Origin: Steroidobacter agaridevorans
GTDB lineage: Bacteria > Pseudomonadota > Gammaproteobacteria > Steroidobacterales > Steroidobacteraceae
Reading direction: 5' to 3'
DNA: 64,000 nucleotides
Assembly (NCBI RefSeq): GCF_009932555.1
Contig: NZ_BLJO01000001.1
Location: 1-64,000, forward strand
The notes under the pieces were generated by a model. The model was not told the DNA's origin and searched no databases. It saw only the letters and a program-made list of their open reading frames with translations. Every line of letters starts with the position of its first letter. The stretch's first letter is position 1. The position numbers and the translations under genes are program-made. Shown piece by piece: positions 31,945 through 41,832 of this stretch.

Positions 31945-33231
31945 ATGTCGGTTGCGAAGCTGTCGGTTGCCTTCTTCCTGCAGATGTTTTTCATCCTGGC
32001 GACCTGTCGCGTGGTCGGCTGGATCGGCCGCCGCTATCTGAAACAACCGCAGGTCGTCGGCGAGATGATCGCGGGCGTCATTCTCGGTCCGTCGCTCTTC
32101 GGGCTGTTCCTGCCCGAGCTGCAGAAAGCGGTCTTTCCTGCCGAGACGAAGGGCGTGTTGTACGTCGGCGCGCAGCTTGGCGTCGGGCTCTATATGTTTC
32201 TGGTCGGCCTCGGCTTCCGGACGGATCATTTCCGGCACAGCCTGGGCAAGGCCGCGGCGGTTTCCATCTCCGGGATGGCGGCGCCGTTTCTGATCGCAAT
32301 CATCGGCACGCCGTGGCTGATGACCGTGCCGGGCCTCTTCGCCGAGAACGCGACGCGCTTCGATGCCACGTTATTCATGGGCGCGGCGATCGCGATCACC
32401 GCGTTTCCCATGCTCGCTCGGATCATTCACGAGCGGGGACTGAGCCACACCTCGCTCGGCACGTTGTCTCTCTCCGCCGGTGCGATCGATGACGCCGCCG
32501 CCTGGTGCGTGCTTGCGATCGTGCTCGCAAGCTTCGGCGCGGGCTCGGGGGTTGCGATCACCGCCATCGCAGGCGGCATCGTGTTCGCCGCCTGCCTGCT
32601 CCTGATCGCGCCGAAGCTGCTCGCTCCGCTTGGGCGCATGGCCGAGCGCGAACAGGCGATCACTCAGTCGCTGAGCCCCACCCTGCTCTCGATCGTGCTG
32701 ATGCTGTTCATGCTGTCGGCCTATACCGCCGACTTCATCGGCCTGCATGCGGTGTTCGGCGGGTTCCTGCTCGGCACCGTCATGCCTCGCGGCGCTCTGG
32801 CCGATAATTTGCGACGCCTGCTCGAACCGTTCACGGTCGTGATGTTGCTGCCGATGTTCTTCACCTACTCCGGCCTCAACACCCAACTCGCCATGGTCAA
32901 TAGCGTCGAGCTGCTGCTCATGGGCGTCGTGATTCTCGCCGCCTCCATCCTTGCGAAGTTCGGCGCCTGCTGGGCGGCCGCGCGCCTGTCCGGTCAGGAC
33001 AACAGCACGGCGCTCGGCATTGGCGCGCTGATGAATGCTCGAGGGCTCATGGAGCTGATCATCATCAACATCGGCTTGCAGGCCGGCGTCATTGGTCCCG
33101 CGCTGTTCTCCATCCTCGTGCTCATGGCCATCGTCACGACGCTGATGGCATCGCCGCTCTTCGAGTTCGTCTACGGTCGCGACGCTCGCGCGCGTGGCGA
33201 GCTCGACGCTCTACAGAACGCAGCCAACTGA
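31945..33231 (+). CDS. Cation/proton antiporter, CPA2 (KefB-like) family
   Basis: From ATG 31945 the product has 428 residues and about twelve transmembrane helices. Features of CPA2 are QPQVVGEMIAGVILGPSLFG and SAGAIDDAAAWCVLAIVL, in which the paired Asp of the ion site sits, together with LHAVFGGFLLGTVMPRG. There is no cytosolic TrkA-N (RCK) domain, so it is shorter than KefB/KefC. It probably exchanges Na+ or K+ for protons at the inner membrane. The 3' end overlaps the convergent peroxiredoxin-like gene by about 60 bases. Confidence 0.9.
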   Translation: MSVAKLSVAFFLQMFFILATCRVVGWIGRRYLKQPQVVGEMIAGVILGPSLFGLFLPELQKAVFPAETKGVLYVGAQLGVGLYMFLVGLGFRTDHFRHSLGKAAAVSISGMAAPFLIAIIGTPWLMTVPGLFAENATRFDATLFMGAAIAITAFPMLARIIHERGLSHTSLGTLSLSAGAIDDAAAWCVLAIVLASFGAGSGVAITAIAGGIVFAACLLLIAPKLLAPLGRMAEREQAITQSLSPTLLSIVLMLFMLSAYTADFIGLHAVFGGFLLGTVMPRGALADNLRRLLEPFTVVMLLPMFFTYSGLNTQLAMVNSVELLLMGVVILAASILAKFGACWAAARLSGQDNSTALGIGALMNARGLMELIIINIGLQAGVIGPALFSILVLMAIVTTLMASPLFEFVYGRDARARGELDALQNAAN

Positions 33232-33686
33232 CGCGACTGCCCCCGAGCGCGTAGACCCGCGGCGGTCTGCGCCAGATCGATCGGCGAAGGCACCGCCGTT
33301 CCTGCTGCATACACGATCGTGCGACGCGCACGCATGTCGGCGTCCAGGATCGTCACGAAGTGCTCGTAAGGGTTCACGTGCCAGTCGCCCGGCAATAGCT
33401 CATCCACTTCGTGAAACGGAATGAAACGTCCGCCTACGTGCGAGACCCAGCTGCGACGATAGCTTCCCCCCGAGGCGACCACGGCGAGATCCAATTGTTC
33501 GAGCTCCTCGGACAGACACGACACCCAGCGATCTGCCTCGAAGCCGTGCGACGCGAAGTCCTCCGGATGTGAGAACAGCAGCGACCAGCGTCCGCCCAAC
33601 CAGTGGTGCAAACGCTCCGTCGAAGACAACGCGATCGCATGGATGGCATCCAGTCCGTATTCACGGTTGACTGACATTTGCAGCAT
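33171..33686 (-). CDS. Peroxiredoxin-like protein without catalytic cysteine
   Basis: The 171-residue protein begins behind GGAGGAGCGAG. Its segment GGRWSLLFSHPEDFASHGFE aligns with the 1-Cys peroxiredoxin active-site region (FSHPxDFTPVC). The motif Thr is replaced by Ala45 and the peroxidatic Cys by Gly48, so the enzyme cannot be an active peroxidase by the normal mechanism. The thioredoxin-fold body and C-terminal FVTILDADMRARRTIVYAAG are retained. It may be a sensor, a chaperone or a decayed enzyme. The only Cys (residue 57) is in a different position. Convergent with the antiporter. Confidence 0.6.
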   Translation of the reverse strand: MLQMSVNREYGLDAIHAIALSSTERLHHWLGGRWSLLFSHPEDFASHGFEADRWVSCLSEELEQLDLAVVASGGSYRRSWVSHVGGRFIPFHEVDELLPGDWHVNPYEHFVTILDADMRARRTIVYAAGTAVPSPIDLAQTAAGLRARGQSRQLAAFCRASSSPRARASRP

Positions 33687-33854
33687 CTCGCTCCTCCAAT
33701 CATCGCTTCGGCAGTGCGTTCAGGATGCGTCGAGGCGGCATCTCATGTCAGTCGGATCGCGGTTATGTAGTGGTCATCATTGCGGCCCTCGGGTGACAGG
33801 ACGTACGCGATGTCTTCATTCGCTTAAGGCGATGTCGGCAAACTTCTGCAGTTA

Positions 33855-33882
33855 TTGACACCACGCCGCTGCCGAGTAATAT
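33855..33882 (+). promoter_or_regulatory. Strong predicted promoter of the rtcB leader RNA
   Basis: A perfect TTGACA (33855-33860) and TAATAT (33877-33882) are 16 bases apart. Transcription would begin near 33889, about 200 bases before the rtcB start codon. I found no sigma-54 (GG-N10-GC) element, so this differs from the RtcR/sigma-54-controlled E. coli locus. Confidence 0.55.
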
Positions 33883-33921
33883 GCGCGCCCCCGGTTCAAC
33901 CCGGGTCTACCGGAGTCGGAC

Positions 33922-33969
33922 ATGCTCGCACCCCAACATCTTGAAACGAATATGAACAACGCGCGTTGA
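33922..33969 (+). CDS. Candidate 15-codon leader peptide of rtcB
   Basis: A GGAG 6 bases before an ATG opens the short frame MLAPQHLETNMNNAR, ending in TGA at 33967-33969. It lies between the predicted promoter and the alternative hairpins, where a leader peptide would sit in translational attenuation. It has three Asn codons, and no run of one amino acid otherwise. It may be chance. Confidence 0.4.
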   Translation: MLAPQHLETNMNNAR

Positions 33970-34033
33970 TCCGCAAGATGACTTGCGGAGCACGCCTGCT
34001 CCCCAAGTCAGGTGCGTAGCTTAGGCTCCGCTT

Positions 34034-34073
34034 AAAAGCCCCTGGCCGGGAAACCGACCAGGGGCTTTTTCAT
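34034..34073 (+). terminator. Intrinsic terminator before rtcB
   Basis: GCCCCTGG and CCAGGGGC pair perfectly around an inner CGG-GAAA-CCG stem-loop. A-tract and T-tract flank it (AAAA before, TTTTT after). The rtcB ATG follows at 34090 with AGGAAG just upstream. Confidence 0.85.
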
Positions 34074-34089
34074 TTCAGGAAGAAACGTC

Positions 34090-35298
34090 ATGCCAGTACA
34101 AATTACATTGAACAAAGCTCGGGTGCCGGTGAAGGTCTTCACCCAGGACATCGAGCACGACGCCATTCAGCAGTTGCTCAACGTGGCGCAGCTGCCCATC
34201 GTTCACGGCCATGTGGCCGCCATGCCTGACGTTCATCACGGTATCGGCGCGACCGTGGGCAGCGTGATCCCGACCAAGCAGGCCATCATTCCTGCAGCGG
34301 TCGGCGTGGACATCGGCTGCGGCATGAATGCCGTTCGCTTGACGCTGCACGCAAAGGATCTGCCGGAGAGCCTCGCGAAGCTGCGCAGCGCCGTCGAGGC
34401 GCGCGTGCCGGTGGGCTTCAACCAGCACGACTCGGACAAGGTGCGTGGCAGCTCGCATGCACGACAAGGCCGCGTGCTCGACGATCGGCTCGACAAGATC
34501 GTCGGCAAGCATCCTGGCGTGATGAAGATGCAACGCAGGTTCGCGCAGACCTGGGTGTGCCAGCTGGGCACGCTCGGCGGTGGCAATCACTTCATCGAGC
34601 TGTGCCTGGACGAGGAGCAGCGCGTTTGGGTGATGTTGCATTCCGGTTCGCGTGGCGTGGGCAATGTGTTCGGCCGTTACTTCATCGAGGCCGCGCGCAA
34701 GGACATGCGTCGTCATCAGGTCAATCTGCCGGATCGCGACCTCGCCTACTTCAGCGAGGGCTCCGATCTCTTCGACGACTACGTCGAGGCGGTCGACTGG
34801 GCACAGGACTACGCGCTCTTGAATCGCAGCATGACGATGAAGCTGGTGCTCGAGGCACTGGCGCCGCATCTGCCGCCCTTCAAGCTCGACGGTGAGGCGA
34901 TCAACTGTCACCACAACTACGTGGCGGTAAAACATCACTTCGGCGAGAAGCTGTTCATCACTCGCAAGGGTGCGATCAGCGCACAGGAAGGACAGCTCGG
35001 CATCATCCCGGGCAGCATGGGGGCGAAGTCGTACATCGTGCGCGGGAAGGGCAATCCCGAGTCGTTCTGCTCCTGCTCGCACGGCGCGGGCCGTCGCATG
35101 AGTCGCACGCAGGCGAAGCGTCGTTTCAACCGTTTCGATCTGGCCAAGCAGACCGAAGGCGTGGAGTGCCGCAAGGACGGCGGCGTGATCGATGAGATTC
35201 CGGCGGCCTACAAGGACATCGATGCGGTGATGACCAACCAGTCGGATCTGGTCGAGGTCGTGCACACGCTGAAACAGGTGATGTGCATCAAGGGATAG
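34090..35298 (+). CDS. rtcB: RNA 3'-terminal-phosphate ligase RtcB family
   Basis: The 402-residue protein has the conserved metal- and guanylate-binding motifs of RtcB: AMPDVHHGIGATVGSVIP, GVDIGCGMNAVRL, TLGGGNHFIELC, HSGSRGVGNVFG and SCSHGAGRRMSRTQAK, where the histidine carries the GMP intermediate. RtcB seals 2',3'-cyclic phosphate (or 3'-phosphate) RNA ends to 5'-OH ends, acting in tRNA and rRNA repair or splicing. No rtcA, rtcR or archease gene is adjacent. It is preceded by a structured leader with terminator. Length is within the bacterial range. Confidence 0.95.
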   Translation: MPVQITLNKARVPVKVFTQDIEHDAIQQLLNVAQLPIVHGHVAAMPDVHHGIGATVGSVIPTKQAIIPAAVGVDIGCGMNAVRLTLHAKDLPESLAKLRSAVEARVPVGFNQHDSDKVRGSSHARQGRVLDDRLDKIVGKHPGVMKMQRRFAQTWVCQLGTLGGGNHFIELCLDEEQRVWVMLHSGSRGVGNVFGRYFIEAARKDMRRHQVNLPDRDLAYFSEGSDLFDDYVEAVDWAQDYALLNRSMTMKLVLEALAPHLPPFKLDGEAINCHHNYVAVKHHFGEKLFITRKGAISAQEGQLGIIPGSMGAKSYIVRGKGNPESFCSCSHGAGRRMSRTQAKRRFNRFDLAKQTEGVECRKDGGVIDEIPAAYKDIDAVMTNQSDLVEVVHTLKQVMCIKG

Positions 35299-35304
35299 CA
35301 AAAG

Positions 35305-35335
35305 GGCTGGCTCCGGCCATCGGAGCCAGCCGCAC
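35305..35335 (-). terminator. Terminator of the DUF885 gene (possibly bidirectional)
   Basis: GGCTGGCTCCG (35305-35315) pairs perfectly with CGGAGCCAGCC (35321-35331). Read on the minus strand it is followed by CTTTT, so it mainly ends the DUF885 transcript. On the plus strand an AAAA tract precedes it and it lies just after rtcB, so it may serve both. Confidence 0.7.
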
Positions 35336-35342
35336 AAACGGG

Positions 35343-37193
35343 TCAACCTGACGTTTGTTTGCTCGCGACCCACTCATCGACCAGACGCTCCAGCACGGCG
35401 AGCGGCACGGTGCCCTGAGCGAGCGCGATGTCGTGAAACTGACGAATGTCGAAGCGTGCGCCAAGTTTCTGCCGCGCCCGTTCGCGCAGCTGCAGCCACT
35501 GAGTCTGGCCGATCTTGTAACTCGTCGCCTGGCCGGGCCAACAACAATAGCGCTCCACTTCGGTGGTGATCGTCGATGGCAGCTCGCCGAGCGATTTCAC
35601 CATGTAGTCGACGCCCTGCTCCCGCGTCCAGCGCTTGTGATGCAGGCCACTATCGACGACGAGTCGCGCCGCGCGGAACATATAGGACTTGATGTAACCA
35701 ATCTGGCCGAACGGATCGCCCTCGTAGACACCCATCTCGTCCGCCAGCTGTTCGGCGTACAGACCCCAGCCCTCGCTGTATGCGATGAACCAACCCAAGC
35801 GCCGCACCGGATGAACTGCCGTGGATTCCTGCGCGAGCGCGATCTGATGATGATGCCCGGGCGATGCTTCATGCGCCGTGAGCGTCATGAGGCCCCACTT
35901 CGGCGTTTCCGCTGTGTTGCGAAGGTTGATGTAGTAGGCACCGGGCCGCGAGCCGTCGAGCGCGGGCGCCTGATAGTAACCGGCGGTCGCACCCGCCTCG
36001 ATATCCGGCGGGACGCGTCGAATCTCCACTTTCGCTTTGGGAATGCGACCGAAGTACTGCGGCAGCTGGCCCTGGATCCTGACCATGCCGGCATTCAGAT
36101 AATCGAGCAGTTCCTGCTTGCCCGCATCGGTGTTGGGATAGATGAAACGTGGGTCGGCCGCGAGCGCCCGCAACCGCTCGCCCACCGAGCCCTGTGTCAT
36201 GCCCTGACTCTTCAGGATCTTGTCCGCGCGCGCATTCAACTCCGCCATCTGCTCGAGCCCGAGGCGATGGATCTCTTCGGCATTGAGCGACGTGGTGGTC
36301 GCGTACTCCAACGCATATTTGTAGTACGCATCTCCCTTGGGCAGCTTCCAAACGCCGGCGTCGCTGGTCGCCTTCGGCCGAATGCCAGCCATGCACTCGC
36401 GCTGTCGCTTCAAGGCGGGGTGAACCTGCTGCTCGACGATGCGCGTCACCTGCGCGGCCCAGTCACCGGAGATGTTCTTGGCACGCGCACGCGTATCGAT
36501 GGAGGTCACGAGTTTCGTTTCTGCCGGCTTCTGCGCCAGCATGCCGTCCATCAACGCGACCGTGCGATCGACGACAAAATTGGGCGGAATCACGCCCATT
36601 GCATACTCGGACTTCAGCCGCCCCGTCTCATTGTCGAGCTCCTTCGCGAACGCGATGACACGGGAAACATACGCCTCCGCGTCCTCGCGCGTCTCGATCG
36701 TGTGCTGGTTGTGCAGGAAGTCCGGAATGCTTCGGTACGTGCCGCCGAGCTGATGCACGCTGTACGGCTCCGGCCAGCTGAAGGTGCCGTAGTTGAAATT
36801 GTCGTATCCGCTCACGATCACGCGACACAGATACTCGAAGGAGTCGTAGTCGGCTTTGGACTGCGCGGACAATGCGTTGCGATCGATTGCCTGCAATCGA
36901 GCGAAGGCGGTGCGAACGACCTTGTGATCCTGGTCGATGCCCGCGGGTGAGCGATCGAGCAATCTTCGCTTCGCACTCGCATGCTCGCCTTTGTCCGTAC
37001 CGTACGTGGTGCGTGACTCCGGATTGGCCATCACTTCTTCCTCATAGATGTAATCCATGAGGGCCTGCAGCTCGGCCTCAGCTTTTTTATCCCGGGTCTG
37101 CGAAAGTGCGACGCAGGGTAAGTTGGCTGCGAATGCAGTGTATACAGCGGACCTCAAAAACGAACGTCGGTCGCTCAACGCAAGGCTCCTCAT
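35343..37193 (-). CDS. DUF885-family predicted exported metallopeptidase
   Basis: From ATG 37193 the protein has 616 residues. The N-terminus has a twin-arginine-like signal (DRRSFLRSAVYTAFAANLP), so it is probably exported. The core is DUF885, with the zinc-like motif HEASPGHHHQ and a downstream YSEGWGLYAEQLADE. The family is predicted to contain gluzincin-like metallopeptidases, function mostly untested. A TTG 7 bases after AGGAG is an alternative start (MSDRRSFLR). It heads a run of three peptide-directed enzymes. Confidence 0.82.
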   Translation of the reverse strand: MRSLALSDRRSFLRSAVYTAFAANLPCVALSQTRDKKAEAELQALMDYIYEEEVMANPESRTTYGTDKGEHASAKRRLLDRSPAGIDQDHKVVRTAFARLQAIDRNALSAQSKADYDSFEYLCRVIVSGYDNFNYGTFSWPEPYSVHQLGGTYRSIPDFLHNQHTIETREDAEAYVSRVIAFAKELDNETGRLKSEYAMGVIPPNFVVDRTVALMDGMLAQKPAETKLVTSIDTRARAKNISGDWAAQVTRIVEQQVHPALKRQRECMAGIRPKATSDAGVWKLPKGDAYYKYALEYATTTSLNAEEIHRLGLEQMAELNARADKILKSQGMTQGSVGERLRALAADPRFIYPNTDAGKQELLDYLNAGMVRIQGQLPQYFGRIPKAKVEIRRVPPDIEAGATAGYYQAPALDGSRPGAYYINLRNTAETPKWGLMTLTAHEASPGHHHQIALAQESTAVHPVRRLGWFIAYSEGWGLYAEQLADEMGVYEGDPFGQIGYIKSYMFRAARLVVDSGLHHKRWTREQGVDYMVKSLGELPSTITTEVERYCCWPGQATSYKIGQTQWLQLRERARQKLGARFDIRQFHDIALAQGTVPLAVLERLVDEWVASKQTSG

Positions 37194-41661: not shown

Positions 41662-41742
41662 GCCCGCCTCGGGCGTCCACCCCCGATCCATGCTAGGATG
41701 CGCGCCCCCGGGCCGACCCGCCCGGGGCTGCGTCATGCGCGT

Positions 41743-41832
41743 GGAAGGGTGGCAGAGTGGTCGATTGCACCGGTCTTGAAAACCGGCAGGCTCTCACGAG
41801 TCTCGTGGGTTCGAATCCCACCCCTTCCGCCA
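41743..41832 (+). tRNA. tRNA-Ser (TGA)
   Basis: The 90-base class II tRNA has acceptor stem GGAAGGG/CCCTTCC and anticodon loop CTTGAAA giving anticodon TGA. A long variable arm (CACGAG-T-CTCGTG) and T-arm GTGGG-TTCGAAT-CCCAC follow, with discriminator G and an encoded CCA. A GC-rich hairpin, CCCCGGG/CCCGGGG (41706-41727), lies just upstream. The 3' half is partly duplicated downstream. Confidence 0.96.

Follow-up and report, generated by a model that had tools for sequence, protein, structure and literature searches.

Upstream of the RNA ligase gene rtcB in Steroidobacter agaridevorans, we identified what is probably a stand-alone gene for a structured small RNA (sRNA) of about 185 nt, with rtcB reached by read-through without a dedicated switch. 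The element was analyzed in a 64,000-nucleotide stretch of contig NZ_BLJO01000001.1, called the window here, and positions refer to that stretch. The initial annotation had described a promoter, a short ORF with its own ribosome-binding site, two overlapping stems, and a terminator before rtcB, and had read them as an attenuator-like leader, with a stand-alone sRNA as its last option. The sequence contains all of these parts, with shifts of only a few bases. The element is real, structured, and conserved, and the last option is now our best reading. The features are:

33855..33882, forward strand: sigma-70-type promoter TTGACA-16-TAATAT, then the GCGCGCCCC discriminator (read from sequence; in 14 of 14 copies)
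33889..34070, forward strand: structured sRNA of about 182 nt, candidate stand-alone gene (5' end predicted; fold and copies)
33890..33905, forward strand: 5' hairpin CCCGG/CCGGG (fold; read from copies)
33911..33917, forward strand: P1 5' strand CGGAGUC, which contains the GGAG of the ORF; partner 34024-34030 (fold, covariation)
33922..33969, forward strand: 15-codon candidate ORF MLAPQHLETNMNNAR with TGA stop; GGAG at 33912-33915
33924..33932, forward strand: P2 5' strand; partner 34011-34020 (fold, covariation)
33938..33943, forward strand: P3 5' strand AUCUUG; partner 33974-33979 (fold, covariation)
33974..33979, forward strand: P3 3' strand (fold, covariation)
33980..34009, forward strand: P4 hairpin GACUUGCGGAGC/GCUCCCCAAGUC (fold, alignment, covariation)
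34011..34020, forward strand: P2 3' strand (fold, covariation)
34024..34030, forward strand: P1 3' strand GGCUCCG (fold, covariation)
34034..34070, forward strand: intrinsic terminator GCCCCUGG..CCAGGGGC with U run (folds)
34090..35298, forward strand: rtcB, RNA ligase, 402 aa (PF01139 match)

The -35 (TTGACA, 33855-33860) and -10 (TAATAT, 33877-33882) boxes are separated by a spacer of 16. The terminator stem spans 34034-34069 and its T run ends at 34070. The rtcB ATG (34090) follows after 19 bases; the terminator thus lies just 5' of rtcB as annotated, and the spacing of 17 bases given earlier is corrected to 19. The identity of RtcB was confirmed by a profile search (PF01139, E 8.4e-131). 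The 187-nt element folds with -85.8 kcal/mol, compared with -57.0 (sd 4.2) for shuffled sequences (z -6.8), and none of the 200 shuffles folded as well. A DNA search found a second copy of the RNA in the same genome, besides that before rtcB.

Using a covariance model, we found 14 copies of this family of about 185 nt in 11 of the 14 genomes of the genus (Steroidobacter/Peristeroidobacter). The model was built from 13 copies; the 14th, in G013, did not contribute to it and scored 69.8 bits. Three genus genomes (G004, G005, and G009) gave no copy, nor did the remaining 203 of 217 genomes of the family, in a lossy model search limited to 16 candidates per genome. With an exact pattern of the P4 region, which misses variant copies, matches in the order came from 9 of 396 genomes, every one a member of the genus. 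Given the limits of both searches, restriction to the genus is provisional rather than proven. A DNA search of 60 related genomes gave matches in 12 and recovered copies in the genus; left uncounted were matches to the terminator only (G016 and G000:C7), to 44 bases of the 5' end (G041), on the reverse strand (G008:C563:6457-6491), and to rtcB only (G007, G010). Reverse-strand matches of 30 nt in other searches reflect the P4 hairpin read in the opposite direction. No family in Rfam 15 reaches its gathering score for the RNA, and among the papers listed in our literature search none, by title, describes this RNA or sRNAs of the genus Steroidobacter. The plasmid and phage collections held no match to the RNA, and mobile carriage was rejected on that basis. 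Judged from sequence, this appears to be a structured RNA family that is new relative to Rfam 15 and so far known only from this genus. The genes 3' of the 14 copies are rtcB (6), an AAA ATPase gene (3), a transporter gene (1), and the pilin/Tad locus (4).

To characterize the structure, we analyzed pairing and covariation in the helices P1-P4. In the model-guided alignment of 14 copies, which is biased toward its own structure, 91.2% of the cells were paired, 8 of 32 pairs were changed on both sides, a count that shuffles (3.8) reached once in 500, and the covariation score exceeded all 500 shuffles. Four of five measures were reached by 0 or 1 of 500 shuffles, while the number of further pair types was not above the shuffle level (213 of 500 as high). 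Sliding the P1-P4 partners lowered pairing to 28-40%. A MAFFT alignment of 13 copies gave 89.9% pairing, 6 double-changed pairs (4 of 500 shuffles as high), and again a score above all 500 shuffles. P4 has compensatory changes in two copies, and P3, with AUCUUG as its 5' strand here, appears as AUCUCG/CGAGAU in other copies. The 5' hairpin takes the form CCGAG/CTCGG or CCAG/CTGG in some other copies, as read by eye.

We also folded each copy singly from promoter to terminator. P1 (with at least 5 of 7 pairs) formed in 13 of 14 copies, P2 together with P4 in 13, and P3 in 8. The fold of G000b had P1 only and that of G012 lacked P1; P3 was absent from the folds of the three AAA-linked copies and from those of G006, G012, and G013. 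On these single folds, support for the three-way junction is strongest among the copies linked to rtcB and in G001 and G003. G002a, when given extra 3' flank, folds preferentially with the CCGCAAG hairpin, which it does not when cut at the terminator. In some copies, a real alternative fold is possible.

The two stems that had been proposed to compete fared less well. CCGCAAG (33971-33977) pairs with CTTGCGG (33982-33988) and overlaps GCGGAGC (33985-33991), which pairs with GCTCCGC (34025-34031). The CCGCAAG hairpin (33971-33988) was paired in 86.6% of the cells, a level reached by 318 of 500 shuffles, and its covariation was at the shuffle level (470 of 500 as high). The long GCGGAGC:GCTCCGC stem is present, with 81.6% of the cells paired (25 of 500), and its covariation is weak (46 of 500).

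A promoter of the form TTGAC-16-TA...T precedes all 14 copies. A promoter scan of positions 33000-36000 on both strands found 1 site against 0.6 in shuffles; the site alone is therefore near chance, but its form recurs before every copy. Searching the genome for the motif TAGNATGCGCGCCCC with one mismatch allowed gave 14 sites, compared with 1 for its reversed control. Four of the sites are followed by a tRNA gene within 75 nt (L182, L188, L192, L194), a fifth has a tRNA 240 nt away, two belong to the RNA copies, and no tRNA occurs in the 3-kb loci of the other seven. The motif was derived from the RNA copies and the tRNA-Ser gene at 41743, so that 3 of its sites are expected and only three of the tRNA sites are independent. 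The -10 and discriminator of the RNA thus resemble those of some tRNA genes. GC-rich discriminators are a mark of stable-RNA promoters under growth control. In the window, the tRNA-Ser promoter region (41694-41708) has the -10/discriminator and the CCCCGGG start in common with the RNA. Separately, another small RNA may begin at a promoter-like stretch TTGACA...TAGTATACGCGCCCC at about 1480-1600 of L189, a locus in which neither a tRNA nor an Rfam RNA is present.

The terminator is worth -22.7 to -27.5 kcal/mol across the 14 copies and is present in all of them, also where genes other than rtcB follow. It was not listed by a terminator scan; the folds give it. In minimum-energy folding, no antiterminator was found in any of the 14 copies: the 5' arm of the terminator gains 0.1 to 5.6 kcal/mol from upstream partners and sits in the terminator in all 14 folds from promoter to terminator. 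With a simple consensus, no promoter-like site was found in the 420 bases past the terminator stem of the 14 copies. In G008, one terminator and a decayed second one precede rtcB. An observation in its own right is a set of three near-identical tandem terminator hairpins between the RNA and rtcB in G010 (L128 6730-6925, minus strand).

These results bear on whether the element is an attenuator controlling rtcB. It resembles terminator attenuators and riboswitches in having a Shine-Dalgarno (SD) sequence with an ORF, stems, and a terminator before a gene, but differs from them in that no antiterminator was found in the 14 copies and in the variety of its downstream genes. The RNA is not tied to one gene, since rtcB stands behind 6 of the 14 copies, and 5 of the 11 RNA-bearing genomes are without this rtcB type. 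Attenuation by competing stems was rejected, as folding gave no antiterminator and the named stems covary poorly, P1-P4 covarying instead. The initial reading as an attenuator of rtcB is not upheld.

We then analyzed the neighboring genes. The rtcB type of the window was found in 6 of the 14 genus genomes (86-100% identical), each time directly behind the RNA, and starts 25-165 nt after the first terminator stem. The AAA ATPase gene was found in four of the 14 genomes, the match in G002 having one in-frame TGA, and three of these genes start 36-44 nt past the terminator stem of a second RNA copy. Profile searches with the AAA protein gave general AAA matches and a weak, partial match to PADLOC mad8. 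At the mnmE/Tad locus of G007 (L136 5340-7676, minus strand), the order is RNA-rtcB-AAA, with 7 bases between the rtcB stop and the start of AAA. Five genomes carry the RNA but neither this rtcB type nor the AAA gene: G001, G003, G006 (75% complete), G012, and G013. In the last four the RNA lies between yidC/mnmE and the pilin/Tad locus; in G001, whose contig starts 1.6 kb before the RNA, it is followed by a transporter-like gene, which we take to be of the AEC type, and then by pilin/Tad genes. The five larger genomes (G000, G002, G008, G010, and G011) have the Tad locus with no RNA copy in the stretch searched (that of G000 being without mnmE), and their copies stand before separated rtcB or AAA genes.

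Further searches around these loci gave no additional copies. A remnant of the RNA at the mnmE/Tad locus of the five larger-genome species was rejected (best 13.4 bits, E 0.23), as were copies next to rtcB genes of the second type (12.6 bits at best, E 0.18). At 12 Tad loci of other genera, the best match (L176, 23.9 bits, E 1.6e-4) lies within the span of a Tad-like gene and was therefore taken as chance. Two of 80 rtcB loci from named genomes, some with little upstream sequence, matched the RNA model at E up to 1, both from this genus, and no AAA relative was found in the same 80 loci, some of which have little flank. Inheritance of a leader together with rtcB from outside the genus was rejected on these two results. 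The RNA tree broadly agrees with the tree of Tad proteins, although G002 is placed differently (short alignment, midpoint rooting), and it groups the five rtcB copies with the three AAA copies of the larger genomes, at a node without a support value. The RNA may have been first at the mnmE/Tad locus, with rtcB-AAA arriving behind it later. In the larger-genome clade, the block would then have moved and doubled, one copy with rtcB and the other with AAA.

Ten of the 14 copies keep the short ORF intact, at 15-16 codons and with its ATG, SD, and stop in register; three different stop codons are in use, and the length changes once, by 3 bases. The ATG is missing in G003, G006, and G013, and the G012 frame continues beyond the core with no stop (the ORF list gives 99 codons). 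Among 2000 dinucleotide shuffles of the 187-nt leader, 3.55% contain an SD-like word followed by ATG and an ORF of at least 12 codons. The ORF is intact in all 9 copies that precede rtcB or AAA, and also in G001; the intact-ORF copies before rtcB or AAA group with G001 and G003 in the tree and are therefore not independent evidence. Between G000a and G001, 4.5 of 9.0 synonymous and 7.5 of 33.0 nonsynonymous sites differ, and pairs between groups are relatively richer in synonymous change, while close pairs differ almost only in amino acids (synonymous/nonsynonymous: G000a/G011a 0/1, G002a/G008 0/2, G001/G007 1/2, G000b/G011b 0/1, G011b/G002b 0/3). Several conserved residues coincide with the P2 and P3 strands. 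The ORF and its ribosome-binding site are thus present in the window as annotated but poorly conserved, three copies having no ATG and one another frame, and the sequences lean against clear coding constraint. Conservation in relatives, on which the initial annotation had made its proposal depend, is divided: the terminator and other stems are conserved, the named stems and the ORF poorly.

We compared the RNA with known systems. The sX13 RNA of Xanthomonas (RF02232) has its own promoter, hairpins, and a terminator and is conserved within its clade, and the present RNA is like it in these respects; a relation was rejected, as RF02232, whose gathering score is 50, reached 11.4 bits (E 7.1) and two other copies were unmatched at E up to 3. 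6S RNA (RF00013) is similar in length, near 185 nt, but the RNA has no RF00013 match and a separate 6S gene lies at C1:1370008-1370194 (76 bits). Identity with tRNA or tmRNA was also rejected. In Salmonella, rtcB belongs to an rsr-yrlBA-rtcBA operon with RtcR and sigma-54, in which noncoding Y RNAs lie beside rtcB (PMC9879122). The likeness is a noncoding RNA adjoining rtcB; the difference is that the present RNA has no Ro protein in company (TROVE/Ro in 0 of 6 genomes searched), no Rfam Y RNA match, and occurs without this rtcB. Identity as a Y RNA was rejected on the first two grounds. That no RtcR is seen here, as annotated, was borne out by a profile search (PF06956) of the window's genome; one of the 6 genomes searched has RtcR. 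In that genome (G011), RtcR lies at C10:1110884, about 2 kb from a second rtcB (about 60% identical) at C10:1113659 (C10:1110884-1114834; L151, L181), and so away from the rtcB type of the window.

As a stand-alone sRNA gene, the element would work as follows. RNA polymerase would start at a promoter whose sequence is like that of some tRNA genes. The transcript would form the 5' hairpin and a body of P1, P2, P4, and in many copies P3, as covariation and folding indicate, and transcription would stop at a strong terminator with no competing partner in folding. The product may be a stable regulatory RNA acting in trans by pairing or protein binding, with contact perhaps at the A-rich loop of P3. 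rtcB would be transcribed by read-through of the terminator, because its start is separated from the U run by 19 bases in which no promoter-like site was found. Consistent with such a gene, the promoter and terminator are conserved with the body in 14 of 14 copies and the structure has compensatory changes, P3 being weaker. Against it, all 6 rtcB and all 4 AAA genes stand behind a copy, which chance neighborhood predicts poorly. This steady linkage is why a cis role or a partnership is kept as a possibility.

A cis-acting leader could set read-through into rtcB or AAA without a base-paired antiterminator, for example through a protein or a translating ribosome on the stems. We consider this unlikely, although several findings point to it: among the 14 genomes rtcB is always directly behind the RNA and AAA behind the RNA or RNA-rtcB, G007 has all three at mnmE/Tad while the larger genomes keep copies before the separated genes, and the 420 bases past the terminator stem hold no site of the simple promoter consensus. 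The terminator nevertheless has no competing fold, is kept where other genes follow, and is joined by extra terminators in G010 and G008, and the model matches among the 80 rtcB loci, some with little upstream sequence, are confined to this genus. That the 15-16-aa peptide is made and matters, so that the RNA has a dual function, seems distinctly improbable. The ten in-register ORFs, with their varied stops and the length change, and the synonymous change between groups speak for a peptide, but the lost ATGs, the other frame in G012, the amino-acid changes in close pairs, and the overlap of conserved residues with P2 and P3 speak against it.

The linkage to rtcB and AAA, and the precedent of noncoding RNAs beside rtcB in Salmonella (PMC9879122), would also fit an RNA that is a partner or substrate of the RtcB/AAA pair, by analogy with the Y RNAs of rsr-yrlBA-rtcBA. 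We give this only the slightest chance, given the missing TROVE/Ro protein and Y RNA match and the five RNA-bearing genomes without both genes. A bolder and very doubtful proposal makes the RNA a functional component of an RNA-repair module. It would have travelled with rtcB and AAA and been kept before each after their separation, because it would guide or sequester RtcB or be sealed by it, while the AAA protein would remodel the complex.

The stand-alone sRNA gene, our preferred reading, would add a structured RNA family with a tRNA-like promoter to Steroidobacter-type bacteria. Its lasting link to one rtcB type and an AAA ATPase may offer a handle on RtcB expression where RtcR is not found (PF06956).
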